Source of the DNA: Rhea pennata
Lineage: Eukaryota; Chordata; Aves; Rheiformes; Rheidae
Reading direction: 5' to 3'
DNA: 64,000 nt
NCBI RefSeq assembly: GCF_028389875.1
Contig: NW_026907702.1
Span: 365,860 to 429,859, forward strand
Positions within the stretch are counted from its first letter, which is position 1; the number at the start of each line of letters is the position of its first letter. The notes below the pieces were generated by a model that was not told where the DNA came from, did no database searches, and saw nothing but the letters and a program-made list of their open reading frames with translations. Positions 1 to 64,000 of the stretch are shown piece by piece. Both the position numbers and the translations under genes were made by a program.

Positions 1-226
1 CAACATCTTCCGTCGCTACAGTTACAGTCGGCAGACATTAACCACCTTTAAAGCAGTGTTCTGCCTTGGGAAATCGCCCTTCCCAAGAAAACATTATTAC
101 AGCTGCACAGATACCTTGCTAATCTTCCCACCAGTGAAATCGGCAAATCTTTTCAGGGCTATGGTGAGAACGTTGGAAGAGCGATGAATTGTAAACCTCT
201 TGGACGCAGCAACCGTCTTCTCACAC
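1..226 (-). pseudogene. USP42-like copy 0, 5'-truncated (only exon 9 in window)
   Basis: Exon 9 lies at 115-226 and encodes the segment from [11 protein letters not shown] to TGGKISK, with acceptor and donor intact and the sequence identical to copy A. The rest of the gene's 3' half should lie left of the window. On the 5' side the sequence breaks at about 621-625 and continues into spacer DNA, so exons 2-8, including the exon with the catalytic Cys, and the normal promoter are gone. It cannot encode a complete protease from its own promoter. Whether the spacer CpG island now about 1.3 kb upstream drives a shortened transcript is unknown. I infer a pseudogene. Confidence 0.8.
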
Positions 227-625
227 CTTCAAAGAAAGCACAGGCAATTGTTTCAAGGCATCTTCACACCTCCCCCCTCACGCCAAAACTCAAACAGCTT
301 TCCACGCTCATCCGAGCAGAATGACGTTTCCTTGTCTAAGGTGGTGCTTCTTCTCTGCAAGACACACACGGCATTTCAACCGTGCTCGTGCAGCAAACCT
401 ACTAGGATGGACGAGGGCCGCTCGATACACATTGGGAACGTTGTCTTCTGGTAGCCAAACAAATGCCTGAGCACCTATCTTTGCTGCGCCCAAAAGTAAG
501 CCTCGCCAGCAACTCAAAAGGCAGCAAGAGCGTAACTCTCTCCCCAGAGCGCAGTTCCCGAAGGCAACGCAAGGCTGCTGTTGCCTGGTAGGCAGAAGTG
601 GCTGTTTCCAACTCGGGGCCTGCTA

Positions 626-1069
626 GCACGTGGTGCTAGCTTCGGCTTGCACAAAGCTGGTCGTGCTAACGCTCACAGTTCTGGCATGGTCGAGCTGTTA
701 CTGCGTGGGGCACGCTGTGAGGGTGGACCAGGTGTTTCCTGGGAGCTCGATAATGGAGACTGTCACTCGGCTGGGGATGTAGTCCAAGTGCTTAGGAGGT
801 AGGAAAGGCAACTCCCTCCCTCAAGCTGGGGGCTGACCTACTGGAAAGCAGCTCTGCAGGGAGCCTCCTCCTGCCTCCACGTGCCTCCCTGCTCAGACCT
901 GAAGACTGCATTTCACAGCTGGGCTGTGAAACAGAGCAAAAAAGTCACCATGTCTGTGAACTCTGTCAGTAGGATGTGGGCAAAAGGCCTTCTGGAGCAC
1001 GAACCTCATGCCTAATGTGACCGTACAGGAAAGCATGCTTTATCAGGCATAACCTGGAAGAAATTGCCT
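626..1069. other. Unassigned spacer DNA, unit 0
   Basis: Matches spacer sequence from 12,884 onward plus the part missing in A|B. No gene, RNA or repeat recognised. Confidence 0.5.
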
Positions 1070-1480: not shown

Positions 1481-2040
1481 GCGAACGAGCAGCAGCGTTG
1501 GGGTCGGGGCAGGGCTTCAGGGCAGTGGTGGGAGTTAGAGCGGGGGCCAAACCCAAGGGCTCTCACCGGCCCCATGCCAGCCGCAAGGCCCTCGCCCGAG
1601 GGCCTCTCTCGGCCCCCAGCTTGGTCGACTCCGCGGGCGCAGCTCGCCGGAGGGCAGGATGCCCGCTGTGTCCTGGCGCGCCTGCCTCCAGCGCCGGCGG
1701 GCAGCGCGGGCAGCTGGCGCGTGGAACCCAGGGCCGGCGCCAGGCTCCGGGCTGGCGGCTGCCGCTGAGAGGGCGGCGGCGAGCAAGTGCTGCGCCGCCC
1801 CGCCAGGCTGCCCAGCCCGCGGGCTGCTGCCGGGCCCCGCCCACCTCCGCGCTGGCTGGCTGAGCGGCAGGCCAGGTGGGGGCAGAGAGCCAATCGGGGC
1901 GCGGGAGGGGCGGGGAGCGCCGTGAGCGACGCGCGGCGTGCCCAGTGACCTTCGCTGGCGCTGCTGCCCCGCCCCGCCGCAGCCTCCGGGGCCTCGGGCG
2001 GGCCCGGCTAGGCCCGCGCCCGGGCCGAGCGGTCGCAGAA
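1480..2040. promoter_or_regulatory. Spacer CpG island, unit 0
   Basis: Very GC- and CpG-rich block with GC boxes (GGGGCGGGG near 1,908; CCCGCCCCGCC near 1,970) and a CCAAT box in AGCCAATCGG near 1,890. It looks like a housekeeping-type promoter, but no gene is recognised on either side. In this unit it lies about 1.3 kb upstream, in the minus-strand sense, of the truncated copy 0. Confidence 0.5.
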
Positions 2041-2738
2041 CTGCGGAATCGGTGGGGTGGGAAGGGACCTCTGGAGATCATTGAGACCAACGCCCCTGCT
2101 CAAGCCGCGTCCCCTGGAGCATGTTAGACAGGGCTGCATCCAGGCAGGCTTTGAATGGCTCCAGAGAAGGAGACTCCACAACTTCTCTGGGCAACCTGTT
2201 GCAGCGCTCTGTCACTCTCACGGGGAAGAAATTCCTCCTCACGTTCAGGCGGACCTTCCGGTGCTTCGGTTTGTGCCCATTGCGTCTTGTCCTGTCACCT
2301 GGCACAACTGAAAAGAGTTTGTCCCTGTCCCCTTGACACCCTCCCTTCAGGTACTTAGAGACGTTGGTAAGATCCCCTCTCAGTCGTCTCTTCTCCAGGC
2401 TCAACAGGGGCAGCTCTCGCAGCCGTTCCTCAGGGGGCAGATGCTCCAGCCCCCGACCATCCTCGTAGCCCTACGCTGGACGCTCTCTGCAGTAGCTCCA
2501 CGTCTCTGTTGTACTGGGGAGCCCAGACCTGGACGCAGTAGTCGAGATGAGGCCTCAGCAGGGCTGAGCAGAGGGGCACGATCACCTCCCTCGACGTGCT
2601 GGCAACACTCTTCCTAAGGCACCCCAGGATACCATTGGCCTTCCTGGCCACAAGGGCACGTTGCTACCTCGTGGTCAGCTTGTCGTCCACCAGCATTCGC
2701 AGATCCTTCCCTGCAGAGCTGCTTTCGAGCAGGTCAGC
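2041..2738 (-). mobile_element. CR1 LINE fragment (3' end), unit 0
   Basis: The minus strand encodes CR1 reverse-transcriptase C-terminal segments ([34 protein letters not shown]) and the typical CR1 tail segment ([20 protein letters not shown]). It breaks at about 2,738, where the sequence jumps past the rest of the CR1 and the LTR. The reading frames are interrupted, so the element is dead. Confidence 0.85.
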
Positions 2739-2904
2739 CCCCAGCCACTGCCAGGCACTGTGCGCCAGCGGAATCTCCACCACCCGTCGGCATTACTGGC
2801 ACCTGCTATAAAAGGACGCCTTCGGGAAAAGAACTGTGAAAAAAAAGCCTTCTTCTCTTGCTGCAATTCCGTACAGAAGGCTGAAGCACCACCAAGCACT
2901 GGGT

Positions 2905-3665: not shown

Positions 3666-6600
3666 CTACTGCTCCCATAGAGAGCCGCCTGCAGGATGGG
3701 CTTCTTCCTTCTCCTCCCACGGGCACTTCTGCAAATGAGGATCTGAGCATTCCAAGCAGCTTTTCAGCTTCTTCATGGGTCTCCTCTTTTTCTTCTTCTC
3801 CTTATGCTTGCCGCTGTCAACATGGAGCACAGAGAAATCCAGATCATACTGTCGGAAGGAAAGAGGCAAGGACAGACAACAGAGAGGTGCTGCTTGATGC
3901 CTCTAAGGGACTGCATTTTAGCAGGTCTGCTGCAGGCGGTGATTTGCAGCTGCTCTGTGGTCATTTCTGAACGTCTGCCTTCCTAAGACACGGACACCCT
4001 CAGAGGTCGAGTGGACATTAGGTCCTGGCTGGCACACAAACCAGTAAGCAAGGCTAGTTCTTGCCTTGTTCTATGCCTCATATGAAACCTCTGGGGTTCG
4101 GCATTTTATGCCTTTTAGTTTTCTACACCACTCTTTGTAAAAGCTCCGGGTGTCTAGTTATCCTCTGTGCATATGACAAATCTATGATTCTGCAGTCATA
4201 GATTTCATGCATGAGAACAAGCATTCTTGTAGCCTTATCAAGAACCGTGTGCAGACGTGATTCTAAGGTCTAACACAGCTCCCCTAGCTTCACTTGATCA
4301 ACCTACCTACGTGATCTCCAGAGAGACTCTGCACTACTCAGAGTTCTTCAAAGCCAACTGGGAGCACCAGAGGATCAGCCAGAGAAGAACGAGGAGCGCA
4401 CTGCTGAAATCTCTTTTCTCCACCCTTCGCCGTTTCCCTTCCGTTTTGATGTCGCTCCCTTCTGCACGCGGATGGCCTCTTTTTCTGCTTCCTGGCTTTC
4501 CAGTCTTCCAGGTAGGGCCCTCAAAACCCACAGGAACTGACACAGCTGGAGGTGCTCGTCTTTGATGAGAACATTTTCCAGGCTGCTGCTCCTGCACTGG
4601 ACAGCGGTGCCAGTCTGCTCGGTGCCTGCTGAAGCGATGCCCATCCTGCCCTCTGGAGAGTGACGACTCGGGGAGCCTCTTGCTTTTGCAAGAATGCTCC
4701 TGTGACCTGTCTGGCTCTGTTTGTCCTCTGCTTTGGGGTCTGTAACGAGGACATTGGGCGGAGCTTCTGCCCTTGCCCCAGCAGCTCCTCTCACGACGGG
4801 AAGCTGTGCGCCAACTGCCGTTGCGATACTGCTGCTGGTGGCAGTTTTGCCTGTTTTGGTGCAGCCTCTGAGAGCACCTCCTCTTGAGAGAATGACTGAC
4901 CGTTTCTGGGACACCAGCGCTATCTGCATCCTCTTTCAGGGCTCGCTTTCTCTCTAAATGACCTGAGCTCTGTATTGCAACAGAGGAGACTGTAAGATGG
5001 CCATATGCAAACACACAGCTTTGCAAAGCCCCAAACACAATCCCCTCCTACTGCCCCAGTAGTCCTACAGATTGCCTCAGGAGCCTTACACACAAAAAAC
5101 ACTCTGCTTTAACTCTACGTGCAAGGCCGGCAAGTATTTCTCATCCCTACTTTTGGTTTTTGGATATTGGAAGTAAAACAGCATCATTTTTGGAAGCCCT
5201 TCCAGACAGCTGAACACGGATCAAAGCTCTTCCCAAATGTCTCTCTGTCTCTCTCTCTCTCTCTCCCTTTACATATATGTGCGTATGTTTGTGCCTCCAT
5301 TCCCCCACCTCACACCCCTCACACTTTCCCTGAAAACCCTAGCATAATTGTGCCAGCACTCTGGAAGAAGCCATTCTGGTTTTGCTGGCTCAGCTGAAGT
5401 GACAGCACTACAAATAAACCAAGCAATCTTCCCTTTTTTTCATGATTTGCACAGGCCTGGGCTCTACTTGCAATGTCTCGCAGTGCTTCAGGAAGCAGAG
5501 CTGCAAGAAAACAAGCAGCGGGGCTGACACACGATTTAGCATTAGGCACTGTTTGAGTGATTCTGGCTGCAGCAGGAGAGCTGTGAAGAAAGCTGCAGTG
5601 TGGGAGGGAAAAAACAATGCAGACGTGACCACCACCCACCTCCCTAAAAAAAATAAGGAGAAAAGAAGGAAGGGAGGATGGGAATGAAGAAGGGAGGAAG
5701 GGAGGAAGGGAGGGAGGGAGGGAGGACGGAAGAGAGAGAATAATCCCACTATCAATTTGATGCCTTTCTCCTTCTCTCTCTTCACCCACATTTACCTTCA
5801 TCATATGAGGAGGATGCTGTGGTCCCAGAAATCCGGCCTGCTTATTATTAGCCTCCTGCTGACCAAGGAACGAAGGGGCAGGGGATGGCACAGGTGCGTA
5901 AGAAGTGCCTTCTCCAAGTGTCTCCTCACAGCACCTTGGGAAACAACAGAGATCGCAGCTGAGACGTGGTCTGTCAGCCTCCTCTTGGGCTGAATCGCAT
6001 CCTATCACTTTCCTGCAGCAGCTGATCCGTCCTACTGAAAACGTAACCAAGACTACAAGCTGAACATTAGATGCTGGTCTTGCTACCACGGCTGTCCCTT
6101 GCAGGGGACTCATCCTTACACCACCTCCGGCCTCAATTTCTCCTTGCTGGCGTTGGACAGCTCCCGAGAGCACCTACGTAACAAGTTACGCAAGTGCAGC
6201 AGGTGAAGGCCAAGCAATGAAGGACAACACACGGCACGGGGAATAGCACGCTGGACAGAACTGATTTCTACCAACAGTCCTTTCCTCCCAGGACAGAAAG
6301 AAAAACACGTCAGAGGACAAGAAGTTTCAGTAGCGCAAAATTACCCTGAACCCCTTTGAATACTTGCTCTTACCTGATATAAAAAAGTAAATACGCCTGC
6401 TGACTGAGAACGGTGTTGATGTCGCAAAGGACTACCGAGGCATCATTCATCTCATACCATAGTCCATTACTGGCCTGCAAACAAAGGCACCGATGCCTTT
6501 ACAGCAACTGCGTGCTTTCTGCGGGAAATCCCAGACAGCACACTCCCGGACAAAGGATACACCAAGACTCGTCAAAGCAGACATGCGGCGAGCCCTTTCC

Positions 6601-9600
6601 CCTTAACAACAGTGGTTGCCAGCAACATGCTGCGGCAAGTTTCTCTTCACCAGCACAGATTTTACCCCGCAAGAAATGAAGTTGATGCTTACCTTGACGA
6701 AGCAGAAATAGTGCCCTGCACGACCGCTGGCACCTCTGTGCACCAGCACGGCGTACAAGGCGTAGCGGACTGGCTCTCCAGCTGACTCAGACATGTACGC
6801 TCGAAGGTCCAAATACTCTGGATAGTTCACGTCCTGAAGACAGAGCAAGGGCATTCTAAACTCATCTGGGAACACTTGACGGAAGAGCCGGAGAAAAGCA
6901 CCTCTAAGAACATGGGCTGCGAGTTTAGACAGACGTTGTTGGGTTCCTCAGAAATCGGTCTTCCCTGGCACAACATTCGGTCCTTTCAGTTGCAGAGAAC
7001 TAGCTGCTCAGGGCAAAACCAGCTCTTCAAGAGCAGGGCAAACGCTCATCGTCACATGGGAACTTTGCTGCTGCCGGAAGGAGAAAGAGGAAGACCTGCT
7101 TCTTGGGCTGATTTTTCCTCAACATCTTCCGTCGCTACAGTTACAGTCGGCAGACATTAACCACCTTTAAAGCAGTGTTCTGCCTTGGGAAATCGCCCTT
7201 CCCAAGAAAACATTATTACAGCTGCACAGATACCTTGCTAATCTTCCCACCAGTGAAATCGGCAAATCTTTTCAGGGCTATGGTGAGAACGTTGGAAGAG
7301 CGATGAATTGTAAACCTCTTGGACGCAGCAACCGTCTTCTCACACCTTCAAAGAAAGCACAGGCAATTGTTTCAAGGCATCTTCACACCTCCCCCCTCAC
7401 GCCAAAACTCAAACAGCTTTCCACGCTCATCCGAGCAGAATGACGTTTCCTTGTCTAAGGTGGTGCTTCTTCTCTGCAAGACACACACGGCATTTCAACC
7501 GTGCTCGTGCAGCAAACCTACTAGGATGGACGAGGGCCGCTCGATACACATTGGGAACGTTGTCTTCTGGTAGCCAAACAAATGCCTGAGCACCTATCTT
7601 TGCTGCGCCCAAAAGTAAGCCTCGCCAGCAACTCAAAAGGCAGCAAGAGCGTAACTCTCTCCCCAGAGCGCAGTTCCCGAAGGCAACGCAAGGCTGCTGT
7701 TGCCTGGTAGGCAGAAGTGGCTGTTTCCAACTCGGGGCCTGGCTCCCCTCTTTCTGCTGGAATGCCAACAGTGAAAGAGAGCTGGAGAAAGGGAGCCTCA
7801 GTCCTCCGGACCAGGAACGGCAAAGCGCTTCCCAGTCGGATCAGTTCTCAGCATCACAAATACAAGATGCCAACAGTCACCTGAAAAGAGACTGAGCCGT
7901 CTGAAATCCTTGGAAACCAACCGCTAAATTTGCTCCGTGGCTCGCTCAAAGGCAGGACATACACGGTAATGCTCTCTGACATAGCCTCCTTCCCAATTCT
8001 GAGGTCAAAATACAAGGCAGAGAGTTCCAAACCCATCCACAGAATGCCTGGCTGCAGTTTTTGCCATTCAACAACTGCGCAAGCTGTCCTGCTAGCGAGC
8101 CAGCAGAGCTTGCTCACGTTCATTATCAGGCAGCCAGCTGAGAGTCACCTAGGCCCCCAGCTGCCTTCCACAGGGAACACCAGGACCTTCTGGAAGCTGT
8201 TGTCGCCTCCCACCCCAAATCCCTCTGCGCAGCTCCTTCCTGCTTGAGCTCACTGCTACACAGAGGACACGGCTTTTAACTCCTGGCCGTCGGGATAGGT
8301 CCGTGCGCAGCTTCACAGTTAGCAAGGCTGACCACTGCCAGGGAAAACAACACTGAAAGCTATAAAAAACATGAAAAAGCTAAAGCTGCCTCTCGTGCTC
8401 TCCTTTGTCTTTCTCAATTAAGTCCAAGGACAGCTTCTGCTCTGAGACGGACAGCACGTTCAGCCAGTAGCTCCCACTCCAATGGCGGGAGGAGGAACCT
8501 TACTTGCTGCATTTGTAGCAATTCTCACCATCCAGCAGTTCAGGTCTCACAAATTCTTCCAGCGCTCCAGAGACCGAGGAGGCTGCCTGGATGAGGAAGA
8601 AAGTAGGACACCTCAGCTCCCGCACACTCAAATCCAAACCTGCGACTACGCTTTGGCCGGAGGGCCTCCCTCCTTCACACGTGGCACACCTACTGCGAAG
8701 CAGCAAACACTCTGAAAGCAGGAGGCAGGAGCGGAGCGTGCTGAACACCGACCTTGTTTGAAAATGATTGTACTTTGACACAAAGAGCGACCTGCCTGTG
8801 GCAGCACACAACTACGTAACCTGTGGTTTGCCTTTGCACAAACAACAAAAGCAAAACAAATGCCAATCACAAGTGTAGGAGAGATGCTCATTGCTCTCTC
8901 TCCAGCTTAAACCCCACACCCCACACGTACACGGAGACCATTCACGGGGCTTCCAGAGCAGGACCGAGTCCAAGCCGCTTCCCAGCCACCACCACCACCA
9001 AGCCCTTTTGCCGTGAACAGCGGGCATTCCTAAGGGAACTCCGTGGAGCTTAGAAAGCCACAGAAAGCAAGAACAAACCCCAAAAGCTCGGCGCCTTCCA
9101 CCGCCCCTTCTGCCACACTTCTAAAACCTCTCACCGTTATCTCCAAAGGGATATCAAGGAACGCCTCATAGGAGTCCGAAACTGCTTGGCAGCTCAAGCA
9201 CGTCACTGCAATTCAAACAGAAGCACCTCACCAACTGCCAAGGAGACTCACTTTGCTCGTTTACATTGCTGGGACCCGCTACTTCAGTCACACTGCAAGC
9301 TCTTTGTGACAAACGGGCACAAAGGCACAGGCCAGTTCTAAGGACAGTATCAGTTTCAAAATGTACGACAGTATCAGTTTCAAAACGTACCTCTGGATCG
9401 TAGAAACCCTCCAAATATTTGGTGAATGACCGTGGTGGCTTGCGACGAGCTGTCCAAGCTGGAAACAAATGAGCAGCAGCACTCAGAAGAGCTGAGGCAG
9501 AGACTCAGCTCTTTGTTTAAAGAGCTCATCTCTTCTACAAAAACCCCGGACAAAGGTTTTCACGTAGGGTAGGAAACAAAGGTGCCAGCAGCGCTAGAGA

Positions 9601-11374
9601 ACACTTAAAGGTTAACCGGGTTCTGCTTACTCGGTGCTTCCGCTCAAACAAGCTGTCTGCATAGCAGCCACGGTGTAACGTAAGAATTCATGAGCATCTT
9701 CCTGTCTGCCAAAACAGAAGTGCTCCCCTATCCCTAAGAAATACAAAGAGTACAATGCTTATCTCAGAAGAAGGGACAGGACAGAAACGCTGCTTTTCTC
9801 AAAGCACTCTTCCTGAAAACATTCCACTCGCCAAACCCTTGGCACCCGTGACATAACCCGCTGGAAATTCACACCTTGCTACAAAGAATGCCGTCTGAAA
9901 TGACTTACGTCTAAGGTCACTGAAGACAGCCGTAGGCTCGATGGCACTGGCAGAGCAGAACAGGACCTGGTTAACGTGCGTCTCCATTGTGCACAGCATG
10001 CAGAAGCCTTGCGCACGACCTGTCCAGAGACAAGGAAGAAAGCACCTCAGTCGAGGGAAAGGTACCGACGTACCTGTGGAAAACCTTGAGCAACAACAAC
10101 CCCAAAGTTCTAAGTGCGGTCTCTGCTCTCCATTCCACGCTCTCGTCTCCAAAGGCGCCAACAGCCCAGCCTGTGGGCATAAGCATTAACCACCAAGTCT
10201 GTACTAGCACCCATTTCCTGAGCAAACCCCGGAACGACCACTGCCAGGCCCTCTTTTGCAGGCAGCTGCACAGGAAGAGCCAGACTAGCTCATACGGCTT
10301 TCACGGTGCTCTTTGGGAGTCTTACTCTTCTCACGGTTCAACAGCGACTCTGTCAGTTCTCACAGTGCTCGTGCAGGATGGAAAGCCGGCTGTGAAGGAA
10401 CACTGAACACGTGGGATGCCCTCCTCCAAAATGTTGTCATCTTCCTACCAGCCAGAAAGCCAGAGGCCAACGATTCATCAAGTGCCTTACTTCCCAATGC
10501 CCTCGATCATTCGTTCACCTCAGGGACCAAAGAACCACCACCCCCCTGCACGACGTGTGACCACAGGCCATTAACTGAACACAAGCACTCCATCAGCTGT
10601 CCTGACTGGGATAGCTCAGGATATCCTGCGCTAGTAAAAGCCAGCGCCTACAGGGAAAACAGGACAGCTCAGAGTTTGCTTCACATAGTCATTCTTCTTC
10701 TTTCACCTGCAGAGCTGTCCAGAGGGTCACAAGGAACATGTTCACAAGTACTCACACGACTGGCTGTGTTCCCCGGAAAGCATGTAATTGGCCAGAGGGG
10801 GAGTGTAGGTCAAACACTGCAGAACAGAGTTGAGGAAACACGTGTTGCCCAGGTTGTGGAGTCCAGCTCCAACACTTTGCCTTTGCCGCCAAGCCACAGA
10901 AATCTTCTCGGGTGGGAAAAGCATCCTTTGTGGCGGAGCGATTCCATCCGTAATGACTGCAAGGAAACGAGATTGCAAAAGAGACTGCCGGCCTTCGTTC
11001 CTTTTCCTATTCTGTTCCTTTTCCTCATCCTAACCTTAACCCTTCACCTCAGGCCTCCAATTACACACTAACAAAGGGAACAGCCAAGACCCCCAGATAA
11101 GCCAGCAACCCTCTGAGCAGCAGGTCTTTTGCTAGGCAATGCTGTCGTCAACTGTCGCGCACAGCGGAGGGAGTCGATGCATTCTCAGAAAACTCTCCAG
11201 CATCCCCCGCAGCTTGTCAACCCGTAAAGCCTTGCAACACTAGCCACTTGCGGTGCCTTTGGCCAGGCACAAAATTAACCTTTACTCTTGAGGTCTTTAC
11301 TCACAGCAGTAGCTGCTTTCTAGGCCAGATCCTGCAGGTGGTACCGGACCCCAGCTTGCAGAGTGGGACTCCAT
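3666..11374 (-). CDS. USP42-like ubiquitin carboxyl-terminal hydrolase, copy A
   Basis: Predicted cysteine protease that removes ubiquitin from proteins. Coding exons (minus): 11305-11374 (exon 2, coding part), 10756-10956, 9909-10019, 9631-9733, 9391-9458, 9135-9205, 8504-8586, 7234-7345, 6693-6833, 6374-6474, 5796-6012, 4424-4969, 3666-3848. All introns are GT-AG and phases agree, giving about 668 residues. Visible motifs: Cys box [12 protein letters not shown] (Cys63), CxxC pairs at 187/190 and 234/237, QEDAHEFL, His box GRAGHYFC (His314), and MND (Asp331). The tail is Lys/Arg-rich ([10 protein letters not shown]). The SASWG and DGIAPPQ segments and the tail fit USP42 better than USP36 or USP17. 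The start ATG has A at -3 and G at +4. Exons through the Asp motif are firm. The boundaries of exons 12 and 13, and the reading frame of 13, are less certain. The C-terminal half is much shorter than in mammalian USP42. Confidence 0.85.
5240..5266 (+). repeat. (CT)n tract in intron 12, copy A
   Basis: Short CT microsatellite in the intron between exons 12 and 13. It is a few repeats shorter in copies B to E (for example about 18,706-18,730). Confidence 0.85.
5656..5740 (+). repeat. Purine-rich (GGGA/GGAA)n tract, intron 12, copy A
   Basis: Polypurine tract of about 85 bases, which is polypyrimidine on the transcribed sense, close to the donor of exon 12. Length varies slightly among copies: about 19,118-19,203 (B), 33,204-33,289 (C), 47,282-47,368 (D), 61,366-61,451 (E). 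Confidence 0.85.
7346..8503 (-). other. Intron 8 of copy A
   Basis: The longest intron, about 1.16 kb, between the exons encoding the two halves of the second CxxC. Open frames in it, on both strands, match nothing I recognise. This is where the copy 0 deletion begins (7,741 equivalent). Confidence 0.6.
9343..9390 (-). repeat. 24-bp tandem duplication spanning the exon 6 splice donor, copy A
   Basis: Two adjacent 24-bp copies (9,343-9,366 and 9,367-9,390) cover the GTACGT donor of exon 6. In A the outer copy has GTACAT instead. B (about 22,805-22,852) and D (about 50,970-51,017) have two matching donors. C has a single copy. Confidence 0.85.
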
Positions 11375-11949: not shown

Positions 11950-13117
11950 ACAACGGGGTCCTTTTCAAGGAATTCTCTCCAGGTCCGGAGGAAAAGCAAT
12001 CGGTGGATTTTGCACTACTGCTACCAGAGAAACACAGCCCTTCAGTGGCCCTTACGAGCAAGCCTCTGTGAAGAAAGACACCGGCACTCCAGAAAGCTTC
12101 TAAGTCGTTCTGGGAGCCTCTGCACAAGCTCACCTGTCTCCAGGAATTAGCAGAGAAACCTGACGCTCGTACGCATTCGTCATAGCATGTGTCCTCATCG
12201 TTGCGAGCATGCTTTGACCTGCTCTCTCCAGAAGGCTTCCCAGCAACAGGGCTGCTCTCTCCCTTTGCGCGCCGTGAGCAAACTTAGTGCTGCAGGATTA
12301 AAGCATAAGAGAGTCTTCACTGAACTAGTGAAAGCAGCTGATTGACAAGTGCCTAGTGGGGGATGCTTTTCTCAATTTCTTTGGCAACCTCTGGGCTATG
12401 CGCACAGGCGTGTGGCCAAAGCGGCTTGCTTGGGACGGTCTTTTCAGACGGCATTGGGTGGTTCCTCCGTTTCCTTCCGCAAACGGTACTCCAGCTCAAC
12501 CTTGTCTCTCTGAGCTGCTCTGAGGGAAGGGTCTGCACCTGGAAGGGCAAAGCAATGCTTCCGGAGCCAGCCAGCATTTCCTTCCTAACAGAAGACGAGG
12601 AAGAGGAAGAGGAAGAAAAGAGGAAGGAGGCTGTTTAAAGGCGCAAAGGCGCATTGTGTGAAGTCTTACTACGAGCTTCGGAGACTATGGACAAATGCCT
12701 GCTTTTAAGCGTGCCAGCTGAACTTGTTAGCCCCCTCGTATTTGTGGCAGTGGGGAGCATAATCTGCCATCTCTCCAGAAGAGAGATGTTAACAGATTAC
12801 TGGTGGGAAGGCTCTGCTTTAATTGGATGGAGCTCTGAGGAGAGCGAACGGCCCTCAGAGACACACAGCCCTTCTTCTTCTAAGCACGTGGTGCTAGCTT
12901 CGGCTTGCACAAAGCTGGTCGTGCTAACGCTCACAGTTCTGGCATGGTCGAGCTGTTACTGCGTGGGGCACGCTGTGAGGGTGGACCAGGTGTTTCCTGG
13001 GAGCTCGATAATGGAGACCGTCACTCGGCTGGGGATGTAGTCCAAGTGCTTAGGAGGCAGGAAAGGCAACTCCCTCCCTCAAGCTGGGGGCTGACCTACT
13101 GGAAAGCAGCTCTGCAG
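11950..13117. other. Unassigned spacer DNA upstream of copy A
   Basis: About 1.2 kb between the copy A promoter and the spacer CpG island. It holds a short (GAGGAA)n purine stretch near 12,592-12,630. A plus-strand 128-codon frame at 12,654-13,040 matches no family I know, and in the C|D spacer it is cut by a stop. I see no supported gene. Confidence 0.5.
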
Positions 13118-13681
13118 GGTTGCGAACGAGCAGCAGCGTTGGGGTCGGGGCAGGGCTTCAGGGCAGTGGTGGGAGTTAGAGCGGGGGCCAAACCCAAGGG
13201 CTCTCACCGGCCCCATGCCAGCCGCAAGGCCCTCGCCCGAGGGCCTCTCTCGGCCCTCAGCTTGGTCGACTCCGCGGGCGCAGCTCGCCGGAGGGCAGGA
13301 TGCCCGCTGTGTCCTGGCGCGCCTGCCTCCAGCGCCGGCGGGCAGCGCGGGCAGCTGGTGCGTGGAGCCCAGGGCCGGCGCCAGGCTCCGGGCTGGCGGC
13401 TGCCGCTGAGAGGGCGGCGGCGAGCAAGTGCCGCGCCGCCCCGCCAGGCTGCCCAGCCCGCGGGCTGCTGCCGGGCCCCGCCCACCTCCGCGCTGGCTGG
13501 CTGAGCGGCAGGCCAGGTGGGGGCAGAGAGCCAATCGGGGCGCGGGAGGGGCGGGGAGCGCCGTGAGCGACGCGCGGTGTGCCCAGTGACCTTCGCTGGC
13601 GCTGCTGCCCCGCCCCGCCGCAGCCTCCGGGGCCTCGGGCGGGCCCGGCTAGGCCCGCGCCCGGGCCGAGCGGTCGCAGAA
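13118..13681. promoter_or_regulatory. Spacer CpG island, A|B
   Basis: Same GC-box and CCAAT-containing block. It is reached directly from 13,117 because the upstream G-rich 620 bp is missing here. Confidence 0.5.
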
Positions 13682-41270: not shown

Positions 41271-41833
41271 GTTGCGAACGAGCAGCAGCGTTGGGGTCGG
41301 GGCAGGGCTTCAGGGCAGTGGTGGGAGTTAGAGCAGGGGCCAAACCCAAGGGCTCTCACCGGCCCCATGCCAGCCGCAAGGCCCTCGCCTGAGGGCCTCT
41401 CTCGGCCCCCAGCTTGGTCGACTCCGCGGGCGCAGCTCGCCGGAGGGCAGGATGCCCGCTGTGTCCTGGCGCGCCTGCCTCCAGCGCCGGCGGGCAGCGC
41501 GGGCAGCTGGTGCGTGGAGCCCGGGGCCGGCGCCAGGCTCCGGGCTGGCGGCTGCCGCTGAGAGGGCGGCGGCGAGCAAGTGCCGTGCCGCCCCGCCAGG
41601 CTGCCAAGCCCACGGGCTGCTGCCGGGCCCCGCCCACCTCCGCGCTGGCTGGCTGAGCGGCAGGCCAGGTGGGGGCAGAGAGCCAATCGGGGCGCGGGAG
41701 GGGCGGGGAGCGCCGTGAGCGACGCGCGGCATGCCCAGTGACCTTCGCTGGCGCTGCTGCCCCGCCCCGCCGCAGCCTCCGGGGCCTCGGGCGGGCCCGG
41801 CTAGGCCCGCGCCCGGGCCGAGCGGTCGCAGAA
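41271..41833. promoter_or_regulatory. Spacer CpG island, C|D
   Basis: Same block, with several CpG-losing substitutions (for example near 41,586 and 41,607) shared with the D|E spacer. Confidence 0.5.
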
Positions 41834-43992: not shown

Positions 43993-44029
<37 letters not shown>

Positions 44030-44549: not shown

Positions 44550-44555
44550 TTTATT
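44550..44555 (-). terminator. Poly(A) signal AATAAA, copy D
   Basis: Minus-strand AATAAA about 740 bases past the copy D stop at 45,294. Confidence 0.6.
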
Positions 44556-48200: not shown

Positions 48201-51200
48201 AAAGCAGACATGCGGCGAGCCCTTTCCCCTTAACAACAGTGGTTGCCAGCAACATGCTGCGGCAAGTTTCTCTTCACCAGCACAGATTTTACCCCGCAAG
48301 AAATGAAGTTGATGCTTACCTTGACGAAGCAGAAATAGTGCCCTGCACGACCGCTGGCACCTCTGTGCACCAGCACGGCGTACAAGGCGTAGCAGACTGG
48401 CTCTCCAGCTGACTCAGACATGTACGCTCGAAGGTCCAAATACTCTGGATAGTTCACGTCCTGAAGACAGAGCAAGGGCATTCTAAACTCATCTGGGAAC
48501 ACTTGACGGAAGAGCCGGAGAAAAGCACCTCTAAGAACATGGGCTGCGAGTTTAGACAGACGTTGTTGGGTTCCTCAGAAATCGGTCTTCCCTGGCACAA
48601 CATTCGGTCCTTTCAGTTGCAGAGAACTAGCTGCTCAGGGCAAAACCAGCTCTTCAAGAGCAGGGCAAACGCTCATCGTCACATGGGAACTTTGCTGCTG
48701 CCGGAAGGAGAAAGAGGAAGACCTGCTTCTTGGGCTGATTTTTCCTCAACATCTTCCGTCGCTACAGTTACAGTCGGCAGACATTAACCACCTTTAAAGC
48801 AGTGTTCTGCCTTGGGAAATCGCCCTTCCCAAGAAAACATTATTACAGCTGCACAGATACCTTGCTAATCTTCCCACCAGTGAAATCGGCAAATCTTTTC
48901 AGGGCTATGGTGAGAACGTTGGAAGAGCGATGAACTGTAAACCTCTTGGACGCAGCAACCGTCTTCTCACACCTTCAAAGAAAGCACAGGCAATTGTTTC
49001 AAGGCATCTTCACACCTTCCCCCTCACGCCAAAGCTCAAACAGCTTTCCACGCTCATCCGAGCAGAATGACGTTTCCTTGTCTAAGGTGGTGCTTCTTCT
49101 CTTCAAGACACACACTGCATTTCAGCCGTGCTCGTGCAGCAAACCTACTAGGATGGACGAGGGCAGCTCGATACACATTGGGAACGTTGTCTTCTGGTAG
49201 CCAAACAAATGCCTGAGCACCTATCTTTGCTGTGCCCAAAAGTAAGCCTCGCCAGCAACTCAAAAGGCAGCAGGAGCGTAACTCTCTCGCCAGAGCGCAG
49301 TTCCCGAAGGCAACGCAAGGCTGCTGTTGCCTGGTAGGCAGAAGTGGCTGTTTCCAACTCGGGGCCTGGCTCCCCTCTTTCTGCTGGAATGCCAACAGTG
49401 AAAGAGAGCTGGAGAAAGGGAGCCTCAGTCCTCCGGACCAGGAACGGCAAAGCGCTTCCCAGTCGGATCAGTTCTCAGCATCACAAATACAAGATGCCAA
49501 CAGTCACCTGAAAAGAGACTGAGCCGTCTGAAATCCTTGGAAACCAACCGCTAAATTTGCTCCGTGGCTCGCTCAAAGGCAGGACATACACGGTAATGCT
49601 CTCTGACATAGCCTCCTTCCCAATTCTGAGGTCAAAATACAAGGCAGAGAGTTCCAAACCCATCCACAGAATGCCTGGCTGCAGTTTTTGCCATTCAACA
49701 ACTGCGCAAGCTGTCCTGCTAGCGAGCCAGCAGAGCTTGCTCACGTTCATTATCAGGCAGCCAGCTGAGAGTCACCTAGGCCCCCAGCTGCCTTCCACAG
49801 GGAACACCAGGGCCTTCTGGAAGCTGTTGTCGCCTCCCACCCCAAATCCCTCTGCGCAGCTCCTTCCTGCTTGAGCTCACTGCTACACAGAGGACACGGC
49901 TTTTAACTCCTGGCCGTCGGGATAGGTCCGTGCGCAGCTTCACAGTTAGAAAGGCTGACCACCGCCAGGGAAAACAACACTGAAAGCTACAAAAAACATG
50001 AAAAAGCTAAAGCTGCCTCTCGTGCTCTCCTTTGTCTTTCTCAATTAAGTCCAAGGACAGCTTCTGCTCTGAGACGGACAGCACGTTCAGCCAGTAGCTC
50101 CCACTCCAATGGCGGGAGGAGGAACCTTACTTGCTGCATTTGTAGCAATTCTCACCATCCAGCAGTTCAGGTCTCACAAATTCTTCCAGCGCTCCAGAGA
50201 CCGAGGAGGCTGCCTGGATGAGGAAGAAAGTAGGACACCTCAGCTCCCGCACACTCAAATCCAAACCTGCGACTACGCTTTGGCCGGAGGGCCTCCCTCC
50301 TTCACACGTGGCACACCTACTGCGAAGCAGCAAACACTCTGAAAGCAGGAGGCAGGAGCAGAGCGTGCTGAACACCGACCTTGTTTGAAAATGATTGTAC
50401 TTTGACACAAAGAGCGACCTGCCTGTGGCAGCACACAGCTACGTAACCTGTGGTTTGCCTTTGCACAAACAACAAAAGCAAAACAAATGCCAATCACAAG
50501 TGTAGGAGAGATGCTCATTGCTCTCTCTCCAGCTTAAACCCCACACCCCACACGTACACGGAGACCATTCACGGGGCTTCCAGAGCAGGACCGAGTCCAA
50601 GCCGCTTCCCAGCCACCACCACCACCAAGCCCTTTTGCCGTGAACAGCGGGCATTCCTAAGGGAACTCCGTGGAGCTTAGAAAGCCACAGAAAGCAAGAA
50701 CAAACCCCAAAAGCTCGGCGCCTTCCACCGCCCCTTCTGCCACACTTCTAAAACCTCTCACCGTTATCTCCAAAGGGATATCAAGGAACGCCTCATAGGA
50801 GTCCGAAACTGCTTGGCAGCTCAAGCACGTCACTGCAATTCAAACAGAAGCACCTCACCAACTGCCAAGGAGACTCACTTTGCTCGTTTACATTGCTGGG
50901 ACCCGCTACTTCAGTCACACTGCAAGCTCTTTGTGACAAACGGGCACAAAGGCACAGGCCAGTTCTAAGGACAGTATCAGTTTCAAAACGTACGACAGTA
51001 TCAGTTTCAAAACGTACCTCTGGATCGTAGAAACCCTCCAAATATTTGGTGAATGACCGTGGTGGCTTGCGACGAGCTGTCCAAGCTGGAAACAAATGAG
51101 CAGCAGCACTCAGAAGAGCTGAGGCAGAGACTCAGCTCTTTGTTTAAAGAGCTCGTCTCTTCTACAAAAACCCCGGACAAAGGTTTTCATGTAGGGTAGG

Positions 51201-53001
51201 AAACAAAGGTGCCAGCAGCGCTAGAGAACACTTAAAGGTTAACCGGGTTCTGCTTACTCGGTGCTTCCGCTCAAACAAGCTGTCTGCATAGCAGCCACGG
51301 TGTAACGTAAGAATTCATGAGCATCTTCCTGTCTGCCAAAACAGAAGTGCTCCCCTATCCCTAAGAAATACAAAGAGTACAATGCTTATCTCAGAAGAAG
51401 GGACAGGACAGAAACGCTGCTTTTCTCAAAGCACTCTTCCTGAAAACATTCCACTCGCCAAACCCTTGGCACCCGTGACATAACCCGCTGGAAATTCACA
51501 CCTTGCTACAAAGAATGCCGTCTGAAATGACTTACGTCTAAGGTCACTGAAGACAGCCGTAGGCTCGATGGCACTGGCAGAGCAGAACAGGACCTGGTTA
51601 ACGTGCGTCTCCATTGTGCACAGCATGCAGAAGCCTTGCGCACGACCTGTCCAGAGACAAGGAAGAAAGCACCTCAGTCGAGGGAAAGGTACCGACGTAC
51701 CTGTGGAAAACCTTGAGCAACAACAACCCCAAAGTTCTAAGTGCGGTCTCTGCTCTCCATTCCACGCTCTCGTCTCCAAAGGCGCCAACAGCCCAGCCTG
51801 TGGGCATAAGCATTAACCAGCAAGTCTGTACTAGCACCCATTTCCTGAGCAAACCCCGGAACGACCACTGCCAGGCCCTCTTTTGCAGGCAGCTGCACAG
51901 GAAGAGCCAGACTAGCTCATACGGCTTTCACGGTGCTCTTTGGGAGTCTTACTCTTCTCACGGTTCAACAGCGACTCTGTCAGTTCTCACAGTGCTAGTG
52001 CAGGACGGAAAGCCGGCTGTGAAGGAACACTGAACACGTGGGATGCCCTCCTCCAAAATGTTGTCATCTTCCTACCAGCCAGAAAGCCAGAGGCCAACGA
52101 TTCATCAAGTGCCTTACTTCCCAATGCCCTCGATCATTCGTTCACCTCAGGGACCAAAGAACCACCACCCCCCTGCACGACGTGTGACCACAGGCCATTA
52201 ACTGAACACAAGCACTCCATCAGCTGTCCTGACTGGGATAGCTCAGGATATCCTGCGCTAGTAAAAGCCAGCGCCTACAGGGAAAACAGGACAGCTCAGA
52301 GTTTGCTTCACATAGTCATTCTTCTTCTTTCACCTGCAGAGCTGTCCAGAGGGTCACAAGGAACATGTTCACAAGTACTCACACGACTGGCTGTGTTCCC
52401 CGGAAAGCATGTAATTGGCCAGAGGGGGAGTGTAGGTCAAACACTGCAGAACAGAGCTGAGGAAACACATGTTGCCCAGGTTGTGGAGTCCAGCTCCAAC
52501 ACTTTGCCTTTGCCGCCAAGCCACAGAAATCTTCTCGGGTGGGAAAAGCATCCTTTGTGGCGGAGCGATTCCATCCGTAATGACTGCAAGGAAACGAGAT
52601 TGCAAAAGAGACTGCCGGCCTTCGTTCCTTTTCCTATTCTGTTCCTTTTCCTCATCCTAACCTTAACCCTTCACCTCAGGCCTCCAATTACACACTAACA
52701 AAGGGAACAGCCAAGACCCCCAGATAAGCCAGCAACCCTCTGAGCAGCAGGTCTTTTGCTAGGCAATGCTGTCGTCAACTGTCGCGCACAGCGGAGGGAG
52801 TCGATGGATTCTCAGAAAACTCTCCAGCATCCCCCGCAGCTTGTCAACCCGTAAAGCCTTGCAACACTAGCCACTTGCGGTGCCTTTGGCCAGGCACAAA
52901 ATTAACCTTTACTCTTGAGGTCTTTACTCACAGCAGTAGCTGCTTTCTAGGCCAGATCCTGCAGGTGGTACCGGACCCCAGCTTGCAGAGTGGGACTCCA
53001 T
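45294..53001 (-). CDS. USP42-like protease, copy D, with altered Cys box
   Basis: Exons: 52932-53001, 52383-52583, 51536-51646, 51258-51360, 51018-51085, 50762-50832, 50131-50213, 48861-48972, 48320-48460, 48001-48101, 47423-47639, 46052-46597, 45294-45476. The reading frame is open throughout. The Cys box reads [10 protein letters not shown] instead of [10 protein letters not shown]. The catalytic Cys63 is kept, but the adjacent Thr62 is Met (codon 52,468-52,470) and Asn66 is Ser. Thr before the Cys is strongly conserved in USP enzymes, so activity may be reduced; this is inference. Other changes are Ile to Val in exon 9 and Arg to Cys in exon 10 (GEPVCYALY). Confidence 0.82.
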
Positions 53002-53450: not shown

Positions 53451-53569
53451 AAGAAAAAAAGGCACGCTGCTGTCACCGCAGCTGTGGGGCAGTTTGGGCC
53501 GCCAGGCCCATGTTGCTGCAAATGGTCTTTCCCCCTCTTCGGCCGTCCGTCACGCTGTCCCAAAGGCTT

Positions 53570-55362: not shown

Positions 55363-55925
55363 GTTGCGAACGAGCAGCAGCGTTGGGGTCGGGGCAGGGC
55401 TTCAGGGCAGTGGTGGGAGTTAGAGCAGGGGCCAAACCCAAGGGCTCTCACCGGCCCCATGCCAGCCGCAAGGCCCTCGCCTGAGGGCCTCTCTCGGCCC
55501 CCAGCTTGGTCGACTCCGCGGGCGCAGCTCGCCGGAGGGCAGGATGCCCGCTGTGTCCTGGCGCGCCTGCCTCCAGCGCCGGCGGGCAGCGCGGGCAGCT
55601 GGTGCGTGGAGCCCGGGGCCGGCGCCAGGCTGTGGGCTGGCGGCTGCCGCTGAGAGGGCGGCGGCGAGCAAGTGCCGTGCCGCCCCGCCAGGCTGCCAAG
55701 CCCACGGGCTGCTGCCGGGCCCCGCCCACCTCCGCGCTGGCTGGCTGAGCGGCAGGCCAGGTGGGGGCAGAGAGCCAATCGGGGCGCGGGAGGGGCGGGG
55801 AGCGCCGTGAGCGACGCGCGGCATGCCCAGTGACCTTCGCTGGCGCTGCTGCCCCGCCCCGCCGCAGCCTCCGGGGCCTCGGGCGGGCCCGGCTAGGCCC
55901 GCGCCCGGGCCGAGCGGTCGCAGAA
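55363..55925. promoter_or_regulatory. Spacer CpG island, D|E
   Basis: Same block and nearly identical to the C|D version, with a private change near 55,632. Confidence 0.5.
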
Positions 55926-57234
55926 CTGCGGAATCGGTGGGGTGGGAAGGGACCTCTGGAGATCATTGAGACCAACGCCCCTGCTCAAGCCGCGTCCCCT
56001 GGAGCATGTTAGACAGGGCTGCATCCAGGCAGGCTTTGAATGGCTCCAGAGAAGGAGACTCCACAACTTCTCTGGGCAACCTGTTGCAGCGCTCTGTCAC
56101 TCTCACGGGGAAGAAATTCCTCCTCACGTTCAGGCGGACCTTCCGGTGCTTCGGTTTGTGCCCATTGCGTCTTGTCCTGTCACCTGGCACAACTGAAAAG
56201 AGTTTGTCCCCGTCCCCTTGACACCCTCCCTTCAGGTACTTAGAGACGTTGGTAAGATCTCCTCTCAGTCGTCTCTTCTCCAGGCTCAACAGGGGCAGCT
56301 CTCGCAGCCGTTCCTCAGGGGGCAGATGCTCCAGCCCCCGACCATCCTCATAGCCCTATGCTGGATGCTCTCTGCAGTAGCTCCACGTCTCTGTTGTACT
56401 GGGGAGCCCAGACCTGGACGCAGTAGTCGAGATGAGGCCTCAGCAGGGCTGAGCAGAGGGGCACGATCACCTCCCTCGACGTGCTGGCAACACTCTTCCT
56501 AAGGCACCCCAGGATACCATTGGCCTTCCTGGCCACAAGGGCACGTTGCTACCTCGTGGTCAGCTTGTCGTCCACCAGCATTCGCAGGTCCTTCCCTGCA
56601 GAGCTGCTTTCGAGCAGGTCAGCCCCCAGCCTGTGCTGGTGCCTGGGGTTATTTCTCCCTAGGTGCAGGACCGTGCACATGCCTTTGTTGAACCTCCTGA
56701 GGTTCCTCTCCGCCCAGCTCTGCGGCCTCTCCAGGTCTCTCTGAACGGCAGCACAGCCCTCAGGTGTATCAGCCACTGCTCCCAGCTTGGTGTCATCGGC
56801 AAACTTGCAGAGCAGGCACTCTGTCCCTTCATCCAGGTCTTGGATGAAGAAGCTGACCAGCACAGGACCCAGTCCTGAGCCCTGGGGGACTCCACTAGCC
56901 ACAGGCCTCCAGCTAGACTCCGCACCACTGATGACGACCCTCTGAGCTCTGCCATTCAGCCAGCTCTCAATCCACCTCACTGTCCACTCGTCTAACCCAC
57001 ACATCCTGCGGGCTTACCCAGGAGGATGTTATGGGAGACAGTGTCAAAAGCCTGGCTGAAGTCAAGGTACGTACTGTCCACTGCTCTCCCCTCCTCTACC
57101 CAGCCAGTCATTCCATCATAGAGGGCTGTCAGATTGGTTAAGCAGGAGTTCCCCTTGGTGAATCCATGCTGACTACTCCTCATCACCTTCTTTTCCTCCA
57201 TATGCCTGGAGATGACATCCAGATGACATCCAGG
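55926..57234 (-). mobile_element. CR1 LINE fragment, D|E spacer
   Basis: Same insertion, with the derived changes near 56,349-56,367 shared with the C|D element. Confidence 0.9.
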
Positions 57235-58637: not shown

Positions 58638-58643
58638 TTTATT
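58638..58643 (-). terminator. Poly(A) signal AATAAA, copy E
   Basis: Minus-strand AATAAA about 740 bases past the copy E stop at 59,382. Confidence 0.6.
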
Positions 58644-59381: not shown

Positions 59382-62300
59382 CTACTGCTCCCATAGAGAG
59401 CCGCCTGCAGGATGGGCTTCTTCCTTCTCCTCCCACGGGCACTTCTGCAAATGAGGATCTGAGCATTCCAAGCAGCTTTTCAGCTTCTTCATGGGTCTCC
59501 TCTTTTTCTTCTTCTCCTTATGCTTGCCGCTGTCAACATGGAGCACAGAGAAATCCAGATCATACTGTCGGAAGGAAAGAGGCAAGGACAGACAACAGAG
59601 AGGTGCTGCTTGATGCCTCTAAGGGACTGCATTTTAGCAGGTCTGCTGCAGGCGGTGATTTGCAGCTGCTCTGTGGTCATTTCTGAACGTCTGCCTTCCT
59701 AAGACACGGACACCCTCAGAGGTCGAGTGGACATTAGGTCCTGGCTGGCACACAAACCAGTAAGCAAGGCTAGTTCTTGCCTTGTTCTATGCCTCATATG
59801 AAACCTCTGGGGTTCGGCATTTTATGCCTTTTAGTTTTCTACACCACTCTTTGTAAAAGCTCCGGGTGTCTAGTTATCCTCTGTGCATATGACAAATCTA
59901 TGATTCTGCAGTCATAGATTTCATGCATGAGAACAAGCATTCTTGTAGCCTTATCAAGAACCGTGTGCAGACGTGATTCTAAGGTCTAACACAGCTCCCC
60001 TAGCTTCACTTGATCAACCTACCTACATGATCTCCAGAGAGACTCTGCACTACTCAGAGTTCTTCAAAGCCAACTGGGAGCACCAGAGGATCAGCCAGAG
60101 AAGAACGAGGAGCGCACTGCTGAAATCTCTTTTCTCCACCCTTCGCCGTTTCCCTTCCGTTTTGATGTCGCTCCCTTCTGCACGCGGATGGCCTCTTTTT
60201 CTGCTTCCTGGCTTTCCAGTCTTCCAGGTAGGGCCCTCAAAACCCACAGGAACTGACACAGCTGGAGGTGCTCGTCTTTGATGAGAACATTTTCCAGGCT
60301 GCTGCTCCTGCACTGGACAGCGGTGCCAGTCTGCTCGGTGCCTGCTGAAGCGATGCCCATCCTGCCCTCTGGAGAGTGACGACTCGGGGAGCCTCTTGCT
60401 TTTGCAAGAATGCTCCTGTGACCTGTCTGGCTCTGTTTGTCCTCTGCTTTGGGGTCTGTAACGAGGACATTGGGTGGAGCTTCTGCCCTTGCCCCAGCAG
60501 CTCCTCTCACGACGGGAAGCTGTGCGCCAACTGCCGTTGCGATACTGCTGCTGGTGGCAGTTTTGCCTGTTTTGGTGCAGCCTCTGAGAGCACCTCCTCT
60601 TGAGAGAATGACTGACCGTTTCTGGGACACCAGCGCTATCTTCATCCTCTTTCAGGGCTCGCTTTCTCTCTAAATGACCTGAGCTCTGTATTGCAACAGA
60701 GGAGACTGTAAGATGGCCATATGCAAACACACAGCTTTGCAAAGCCCCAAACACAATCCCCTCCTACTCCCCCAGTAGTCCTACAGGTTGCCTCAGGAGC
60801 CTTACACACAAAAAACACTCTGCTTTAACTCTACGTGCAAGGCCGGCAAGTATTTCTCATCCCTACTTTTGGTTTTTGGATATCGGAAGTAAAACAGCAT
60901 CATTTTTGGAAGCCCTTCCAGACAGCTGAACACGGATCAAAGCTCTTCCCAAATGTCTCTCTGTCTCTCTCTCTCTCTCCCTTTACATATATGTGCGTAT
61001 GTTTGTGCCTCCATTCCCCCACCTCACACCCCTCACACTTTCCCTGAAAACCCTAGCATAATTGTGCCAGCACTCTGGAAGAAGCCATTCTGGTTTTGCT
61101 GGCTCAGCTGAAGTGACAGCACTACAAATAAACCAAGCAATCTTCCCTTTTTTTTCATGATTTGCACAGGCCTGGGCTCTACTTGCAATGTCTCGCAGTG
61201 CTTCAGGAAGCGGAGCTGCAAGAAAACAAGCAGCGGGTGACACACGATTTAGCATTAGGCACTGTTTGAGTGATTCTGGCTGCAGCAGGAGAGCTGTGAA
61301 GAAAGCTGCAGTGTGGGAGGGAAAATACAATGCAGACGTGACCACCACCCACCTCCCTAAAAAAATAAGGAGAAAAGAAGGAAGGGAGGATGGAATGAAG
61401 AAGGGAGGAAGGGAGGAAGGGAGGGAGGGAGGGAGGATGGAAGAGAGAGAATAATCCCACTATCAATTGATGCTTTCTCCTTCTCTCTCTTCACCCACAT
61501 TTACCTTCATCATATGAGGAGGATGCTGTGGTCCCAGAAATCCGGCCTGCTTATTATTAGCCTCCTGCTGACCAAGGAACGAAGGGGCAGGGGATGGCAC
61601 AGGTGCGTAAGAAGTGCCTTCTCCAAGTGTCTCCTCACAGCACCTTGGGAAACAACAGAGATCGCAGCTGAGACGTGTCTGTCAGCCTCCTCTTGGGCTG
61701 AATCGCATCCTATCACTTTCCTGCAGCAGCTGATCCGTCCTACTGAAAACGTAACCAAGACTACAAGCTGAACATTAGATGCTGGTCTTGCTACCACAGC
61801 TGTCCCTTGCAGGGGACTCATCCTTACACCACCTCCGGCCTCAATTTCTCCTTGCTGGCGTTCGACAGCTCCCGAGAGCACCTACGTAACAAGTTACGCA
61901 AGTGCAGCAGGTGAAGGCCAAGCAATGAAGGACAACACACGGCACGGGGAATAGCACGCTGGACAGAACTGATTTCTACCAACAGTCCTTTCCTCCCAGG
62001 ACAGAAAGAAAAACACGTCAGAGGACAAGAAGTTTCAGTAGCGCAAAATTACCCTGAACCCCTCTTGAATACTTGCTCTTACCTGATATAAAAAAGTAAA
62101 TACGCCTGCTGACTGAGAACGGTGTTGATGTCGCAAAGGACTACCGAGGCATCATTCATCTCATACCATAGTCCATTACTGGCCTGCAAACAAAGGCACC
62201 GATGCCTTTACAGCAACTGCGTGCTTTCTGCAGAAATCCCAGACAGCACACTCCCGGACAAAGGATACACCAAGACTCGTCAAAGCAGACATGCGGCGAG

Positions 62301-63045
62301 CCCTTTCCCTTAACAACAGTGGTTGCCAGCAACATGCTGCGGCAAGTTTCTCTTCACCAGCACAGATTTTACCCCGCAAGAAATGAAGTTGATGCTTACC
62401 TTGACGAAGCAGAAATAGTGCCCTGCACGACCGCTGGCACCTCTGTGCACCAGCACGGCGTACAAGGCGTAGCGGACTGGCTCTCCAGCTGACTCAGACA
62501 TGTACGCTCGAAGGTCCAAATACTCTGGATAGTTCACGTCCTGAAGACAGAGCAAGCATTCTAAACTCATCTGGGAACACTTGACGGAAGAGCCGGAGAA
62601 AAGCACCTCTAAGAACATGGGCTGCGAGTTTAGACAGACGTTGTTGGGTTCCTCAGAAATCGGTCTTCCCTGGCACAACATTCGGTCCTTTCAGTTGCAG
62701 AGAACTAGCTGCTCAGGGCAAAACCAGCTCTTCAAGAGCAGGCAAACGCTCATCGTCACATGGGAACTTGCTGCTGCCGGAAGGAGAAAGAGGAAGACCT
62801 GCTTCTTGGGCTGATTTTTCCTCAACATCTTCCGTCGCTACAGTTACAGTCGGCAGACATTAACCACTTTAAAGCAGTGTTCTGCCTTGGGAAATCGCCT
62901 TCCCAAGAAAACATTATTACAGCTGCACAGATACCTTGCTAATCTTCCCACCAGTGAAATCGGCAAATCTTTTCAGGGCTTGGTGAGAACGTTGAAAGAG
63001 CGATGAACTGTAAACCTCTTGGACGCAGCAACCGTCTTCTCACAC
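59382..63045 (-). CDS. USP42-like protease, copy E (3' part; frameshifted as assembled)
   Basis: Only exons 9 to 14 fall inside the window: 62935-63045, 62400-62540, 62083-62183, 61505-61720, 60140-60685, 59382-59564. The exon with the catalytic Cys lies beyond the right end. The His box (GRAGHYFC) and MND motif are present. Exon 9 is one base short (near 62,980), giving an early stop, and exon 12 is one base short (near 61,677). Both fall in a cluster of homopolymer indels at 61,230-63,570 that covers introns and exons alike, so I think sequencing error is more likely than decay. Exons 13 and 14 are open and match the other copies. Confidence 0.7.
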
Positions 63046-64000
63046 CTTCAAGGCAAGCACAGGCAATTGTTTCAAGGCATCTTCACACCTCCCCCCTCAC
63101 GCCAAAGCTCAAACAGCTTTCCACGCTCATCCGAGCAGAATGACGTTTCCTTGTCTAAGGTGGTGCTTCTTCTCTGCAAGACACACACTGCATTTCAGCC
63201 GTGCTCGTGCAGCAAACCTACTAGGATGGACGAGGGCCGCTCGATACACATTGGGAACGTTTGTCTTCTGGTAGCCAAACAAATGCCTGAGCACCCAGCT
63301 TTGCTGCGCCCAAAAGTAAGCCTCGCCAGCAACTCAAAAGGCAGCAGGAGCGTAACTCTCTCGCCAGAGCGCAGTTCCCGAAGGCAACGCAAGGCTGCTG
63401 TTGCCTGGTAGGCAGAAGTGGCTGTTTCCAACTCGGGGCCTGGCTCCCCTCTTTCTGCTGGAATGCACAGTGAAAGAGAGCTGGAGAAAGGGAGCCTCAG
63501 TCCTCCAGACCAGGAACGGCAAAGCGCTTCCCAGTCGGATCAGTTCTCAGCATCACAAATACAAGATGCAACAGTCACCTGAAAAGAGACTGAGCCGTCT
63601 GAAATCCTTGGAAACCAACCGCTAAATTTGCTCCGTGGCTCGCTCAAAGGCAGGACATACACGGTAATGCTCTCTGACATAGCCTCCTTCCCAATTCTGA
63701 GGTCAAAATACAAGGCAGAGAGTTCCAAACCCATCCACAGAATGCCTGGCTGCAGTTTTTGCCATTCAACAACTGCGCAAGCTGTCCTGCTAGCGAGCCA
63801 GCAGAGCTTGCTCACGTTCATTATCAGGCAGCCAGCTGAGAGTCACCTAGGCCCCCAGCTGCCTTCCACAGGGAACACCAGGGCCTTCTGGAAGCTGTTG
63901 TCGCCTCCCACCCCAAATCCCTCTGCGCAGCTCCTTCCTGCTTGAGCTCACTGCTACACAGAGGACACGGCTTTTAACTCCTGGCCGTCGGGATAGGTCC

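Follow-up and report, generated by a model that had tools for sequence, protein, structure and literature searches.

A tandem array of intron-containing USP42-like deubiquitinase genes in the genome of Rhea pennata

At one end of an unplaced contig from Rhea pennata lies a 14-kb repeat, which raises the question of whether it is a family of genes or satellite DNA, and from which gene it is descended. The window analysed here, 64,000 nucleotides at positions 365860-429859 of contig C165 (429859 bases) in the 1.27-Gb assembly, ends where the contig ends. It contains four complete and two partial USP42-like gene copies on the minus strand, arranged head to tail. The original prediction, made from the letters of the window, was of at least six copies, two of them partial, and this is what we find: four complete exon sets, one set of exons G, H and I, and a lone exon G. 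Throughout, A to I denote the nine exons of the catalytic domain, and J, K and L denote pieces of the tail. Comparison of the window with itself revealed collinear blocks at a lag of 14078, which amount to 36,867 bases at 99.06% identity, and further collinear lags of 28152 and 42244 at ~99% identity. Hence, the predicted repeat length of 14.08 kb holds for these lags, but the spacing is not uniform, since one interval is 13466 (13.46 kb) and ~612 bp are absent at 13117-13119, adjacent to the CpG-rich stretch upstream of copy 1. Exon A of the four complete sets starts at 10956, 24418, 38487 and 52583, and positions 1-624 form a rearranged, broken unit. The features of the window are as follows.

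6374..10956, minus strand: copy 1, nine USP-domain exons A-I, open, GT-AG borders
19837..24418, minus strand: copy 2, nine USP-domain exons A-I, open, GT-AG borders
33923..38487, minus strand: copy 3, nine USP-domain exons A-I, open, GT-AG borders
48001..52583, minus strand: copy 4, nine USP-domain exons A-I, open, GT-AG borders
62083..63045, minus strand: partial copy 5, exons G-H-I, with G one base short; the contig ends before A-F
115..226, minus strand: exon G of the rearranged partial copy; its exons H and I are just outside the window, to the left
52932..53001, minus strand: N-terminal coding stretch of copy 4, from ATG to a GT donor, in phase with exon A
47423..47561, minus strand: exon J of copy 4, resembling the USP42 exon that follows the domain
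45962..46666, minus strand: open frame of copy 4 with K, resembling the Arg/Lys-rich USP42 tail
4334-5038, 17800-18504, 31884-32588 and 60050-60754: frames of 234 amino acids, the same length as the K frame of copy 4
45294..45476, minus strand: exon L of copy 4 with the stop codon, resembling part of the kiwi USP42 C-terminus
1501..2150, strand not applicable: CpG-rich stretch of a unit
13101..13800, strand not applicable: CpG-rich stretch upstream of copy 1
27201..27900, strand not applicable: CpG-rich stretch upstream of copy 2
41351..41950, strand not applicable: CpG-rich stretch upstream of copy 3
55401..56050, strand not applicable: CpG-rich stretch upstream of copy 4
42457..42912, minus strand: reverse-transcriptase fragment (PF00078, E 4.8e-8; one frame scanned)
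14306-14761, 28383-28838 and 56549-57004: frames of like length to the reverse-transcriptase fragment

Each unit has one CpG-rich stretch of 600-700 bases, and both ATTAAA and AATAAA occur 3′ of the last coding exon in the one unit that was checked; this fits the expectation that every copy has its own CpG promoter and poly(A) signal. The reverse-transcriptase fragment of the unit presumably derives from a CR1-type LINE. A scan against Rfam gave no family above its gathering score. In three of the window's four complete copies, exon D is followed immediately by a direct duplication of 24 bases (9343-9390, 22805-22852 and 50970-51017), which doubles the splice-donor region.

The product of exons A-I is a 329-residue ubiquitin-specific protease domain; it is complete and matches PF00443 (UCH) over the whole model (1-254 of 254) with 188.3 bits against a cut-off of 23.9. 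The array retains C39, H290 and D307, which we take to be the Cys-His-Asp catalytic triad, and C163, C166, C210 and C213, presumably zinc-type CxxC pairs; all seven residues are likewise present in 21/21 proteins of the bird 'USP42-like' clade that includes the array, hereafter 42L.

To locate further copies, we searched the assembly for exon A and found 19 places: 5 on C165, 12 on the 6.58-Mb scaffold C27 (6575671 bases), and one each on C15 and C19, which group with annotated USP42 and annotated USP36, respectively. The array thus comprises 17 complete copies, 12 on C27 and 5 on C165, together with three partial ones. The C27 array spans 6268402 to 6444538; its 12 complete copies and single partial copy lie between a unique flank and satellite. 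Units of kilobase scale in tandem, which characterise a macrosatellite, are therefore found on both contigs, bearing out the suggestion of a megasatellite-like array in a bird. In all 17 complete copies the 991-base domain sequence is open and the exon borders are GT-AG. Full-length matches to the tail pieces on the two contigs also have an open frame throughout (J, 20/20; K, 18/18, not counting two further K matches that are not full length; L, 18/18), and the N-terminal stretch is full length in 10 of 12 matches on C27 and 5 of 5 on C165. Among annotated proteins, the most similar by identity (99%, second by E-value, among the best 120 of 1032 matches) is from Rhea pennata itself, and two further annotated Rhea pennata array proteins, on C165, were among the best 120 of 2217 matches. 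The first 1500 bases of C27 contain no G or C but one repeated character, probably N.

The gene from which the array derives is indicated by several lines of evidence. The domain shares 80% amino-acid identity with rhea USP42 and 62% with rhea USP36, and its nine exons equal those of the single-copy rhea USP42 on C15 in their lengths and splice sites (AG/GT). This equality shows that copying was at the DNA level, as predicted, and not by retroposition. The tail pieces J, K and L are similar to USP42, and when the unit is aligned to bird USP42, K and L, the C-terminal exons, match the tail of the kiwi protein. Unlike rhea USP42, the array genes are multicopy; they are also richer in GC, and for most of the USP42 tail (kiwi residues 389-856) the unit contains no match. 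Gene models in databases disagree on the tail, joining J to L, reading K in another frame, or continuing into the neighbouring copy. We predict a tail of exons J and L and probably also K. In addition, past the stop codon in exon L, 44471-44635 shows similarity (47%, E 2.6e-9) to the final residues of an annotated kiwi USP42.

Consistent with a USP42 origin, a tree of 68 proteins placed the array with five kiwi and tinamou '42-like' proteins, as sister to 15 neognath ones (99.8/100), and this 42L clade falls inside the bird USP42 group, with USP36 outside. The family assignment made at the outset is thereby upheld. The kiwi, tinamou and neognath relatives were compared as protein sequences. 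Seven positions separate 42L from canonical USP42 at an 80% threshold, and at one of them, position 58, the rhea keeps the canonical residue. AU tests rejected the hypothesis that the palaeognath copies arose independently from palaeognath USP42 (p=0.0006), whereas a single clade of canonical bird USP42 without 42L was not rejected (p=0.30), so that 42L may be nested within USP42 or sister to it. Going by this tree, we conclude that the 42L clade predates the palaeognath/neognath split. These tests were run under JTT+G4 with fast constrained searches, and their 5000 resamplings fall short of the program's recommendation; the groups were defined with the trees already in view, and long branches or gene conversion between paralogues could mislead. 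Proteins came from the best 120 of 1032, 2217 and 3464 matches and were hand-picked for the trees (86 of 161 and 65 of 269, plus three rhea sequences each), with no row dropped for coverage.

Other birds also have extra genes of this type. Anseriform and parrot '42-like' proteins are likewise USP42-derived, but they lie outside 42L and group with the USP42 of their own lineages; placing the anseriform copies inside the 42L clade was rejected (AU p=4e-5). These genes appear to have arisen separately from 42L. The '42-like' proteins of Anas, Anser and Melopsittacus look like separate USP42 amplifications, and the Anas cluster stands for 75 sequences. Within 42L, nearby locus tags on one contig each in Mycteria americana (QYF61_016244 to 016264) and Columba guinea (Q9233_008168 to 008180), at least five per species among the matches listed, suggest gene clusters in both birds.

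We then considered whether the copies are maintained by selection or whether the array consists largely of satellite DNA that is decaying or selfish, its copies spread by unequal exchange and intact in appearance through youth and homogenisation. Between the array consensus and the rhea USP42 domain, dN is 0.098, dS 0.83 and dN/dS 0.118, where dS is uncertain because GC3 differs between the two (0.59 in the array, 0.36 in USP42). The 17 copies differ from one another by nine nonsynonymous and ten synonymous changes, against an expectation of 71.5% nonsynonymous under assumed weights (p=0.023). Gaps among the copies fall into six runs in introns, with none in exons. However, a circular-shift test found exons not significantly depleted in variable sites (0.28) or in gaps (0.23). 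Earlier permutation p-values of 0.0064 and 0.0024 were discarded, because the flank of one copy runs into satellite. Stop codons make up 3.1% of changes, and 19 changes are too few for one to be expected by chance.

Some copies are damaged. Relative to the consensus of the 17 copies, copy 4 carries T38M, N42S and R272C; T38M and N42S, both in the Cys box (52383-52583), are found in this copy alone among the complete copies, and in the 68-protein alignment N42 is invariant and T38 nearly so. The copy 4 enzyme is, judging by these substitutions, probably impaired. This damage, that of the three partial copies, the satellite block bordering the array, and an exon diversity not significantly below that of introns by circular shifts are all as expected of decaying or selfish DNA. 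Nevertheless, the low dN/dS against USP42, the triad retained in every 42L protein from palaeognaths and neognaths, and the shortage of nonsynonymous changes argue against that explanation, and we regard it as rather unlikely. We conclude that long-term constraint on the USP42-like copies is well supported by the sequence comparisons, and that constraint at the present day is weakly supported.

The two contigs could represent one locus or two. On C27 a 336-bp satellite adjoins the array; it was read to 6455000 and was present at 4/4 points sampled from there to the scaffold end. On C165 it again adjoins the array and was present at 7/7 points sampled to the left. The two contigs have the same border between array and satellite: matches to the unit stop at its positions 1764 and 1773, and a 6-kb segment spanning the border aligns between them at 96.2%. 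In a tree of units, the five from C165 and the four satellite-proximal ones from C27 split from the other eight C27 units (98-100). Within this one assembly, the two contigs show differences close to the satellite of a sort that two alleles might have. C165 is probably the other haplotype of the C27 array locus; if so, the haploid copy number is at least 12, and the 17 copies found may count one locus twice. Alternatively, the two contigs could flank a single satellite block in an inverted arrangement, since C27 ends in satellite, C165 begins in it, and the arrays are mirror-ordered with the same border. The resemblance of C165 units to satellite-proximal C27 units would be expected on either reading, but two haplotypes account for the same facts with fewer events, and we consider an inversion quite improbable. 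As side observations, the 336-base satellite also occurs at C8:36018952-36094082 and C107:7081-7416, and the last C27 unit before the satellite (C27:6440916-6444538) is without a large internal part that the last C165 unit keeps. Finally, although C165 breaks inside the array, it is extremely improbable that the assembly made a tandem array out of a single gene, since units diverge from one another by 0.4-1.1% and vary in structure, some changes being specific to single units, and on C27 the array lies between a unique flank and satellite.

We think it likely that the array is a protein-coding macrosatellite of shortened USP42 paralogues, whose copies would be transcribed and would provide a dosage-amplified deubiquitinase, most likely in germ cells. 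Every ~14-kb unit carries one such paralogue, whole but shortened, together with a CpG-rich 5′ region of its own and a fragment of reverse transcriptase, and the predicted protein would consist of the N-terminal stretch, the nine-exon USP domain and the tail exons J, L and probably K. Divergence between C27 units grows with distance along the array, neighbours differing by 0.41% and units at lag 11 by 1.11%, from which we infer that unequal crossing-over and gene conversion gain, lose and homogenise copies. Seemingly complete enzymes with CpG-rich 5′ regions would mean many active genes and a raised dosage, and transcribed copies would then act together. The site of action and the substrates are suggested by analogy: mouse Usp42 is expressed in testis, with a peak at round spermatids, and acts on p53 and histone H2B, according to a review (PMC12938806), so that the germ-cell targets of the array enzymes might be substrates of the USP42 type, ubiquitinated histone H2B among them. 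The speculation that the array belongs to a germline-restricted chromosome has no support, because the 6.58-Mb scaffold that carries the array belongs to an ordinary assembly.

Among known systems, the closest is the human megasatellite RS447, likewise a tandem array of deubiquitinase genes of the USP36/USP42 group. RS447/USP17 units are not known to contain introns. By contrast with RS447 units, which are 4.7 kb and encode USP17 (PMC3599962), the rhea unit is ~14 kb with introns; the array would work like RS447 without belonging to it. USP17/DUB had been set aside as a different USP lineage, which our tree does not support: USP17-like proteins group with mammalian USP42 (84/77), while a grouping with USP36 was not rejected (AU p=0.22). 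According to Burrows and others (PMC2874809), USP36 and USP42 are the closest relatives of USP17, which expanded independently in distantly related mammals, and insertion of an mRNA is proposed as its origin. Mammalian USP17 may be another offshoot of USP42.

Single genes named 'USP42-like' were already known from databases; in the open-licence literature on USP42 in birds, no paper on a USP42-like array was found by title or start of abstract. The rhea array adds a bird protein-coding macrosatellite, made of intron-containing deubiquitinase genes with the catalytic domain open in every complete copy found, and the paralogue lineage to which it belongs is older than the palaeognath/neognath split. 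Together, 42L, the anseriform and parrot copies, and mammalian USP17 suggest several amplifications of USP42-type genes in amniotes, the cause of which can be tested through copy number and expression across birds. Tentatively, USP42 could be a recurrent seed of amplified deubiquitinases in amniotes, giving rise to 42L, to the anseriform and parrot genes and, by retroposition, to USP17/RS447; we see this as possible, though on the doubtful side. If true, recurrent amplification of USP42 would indicate a recurring conflict in germ cells, for example drive or an arms race over the deubiquitination of histones or p53, that favours copy numbers which are high and can change.
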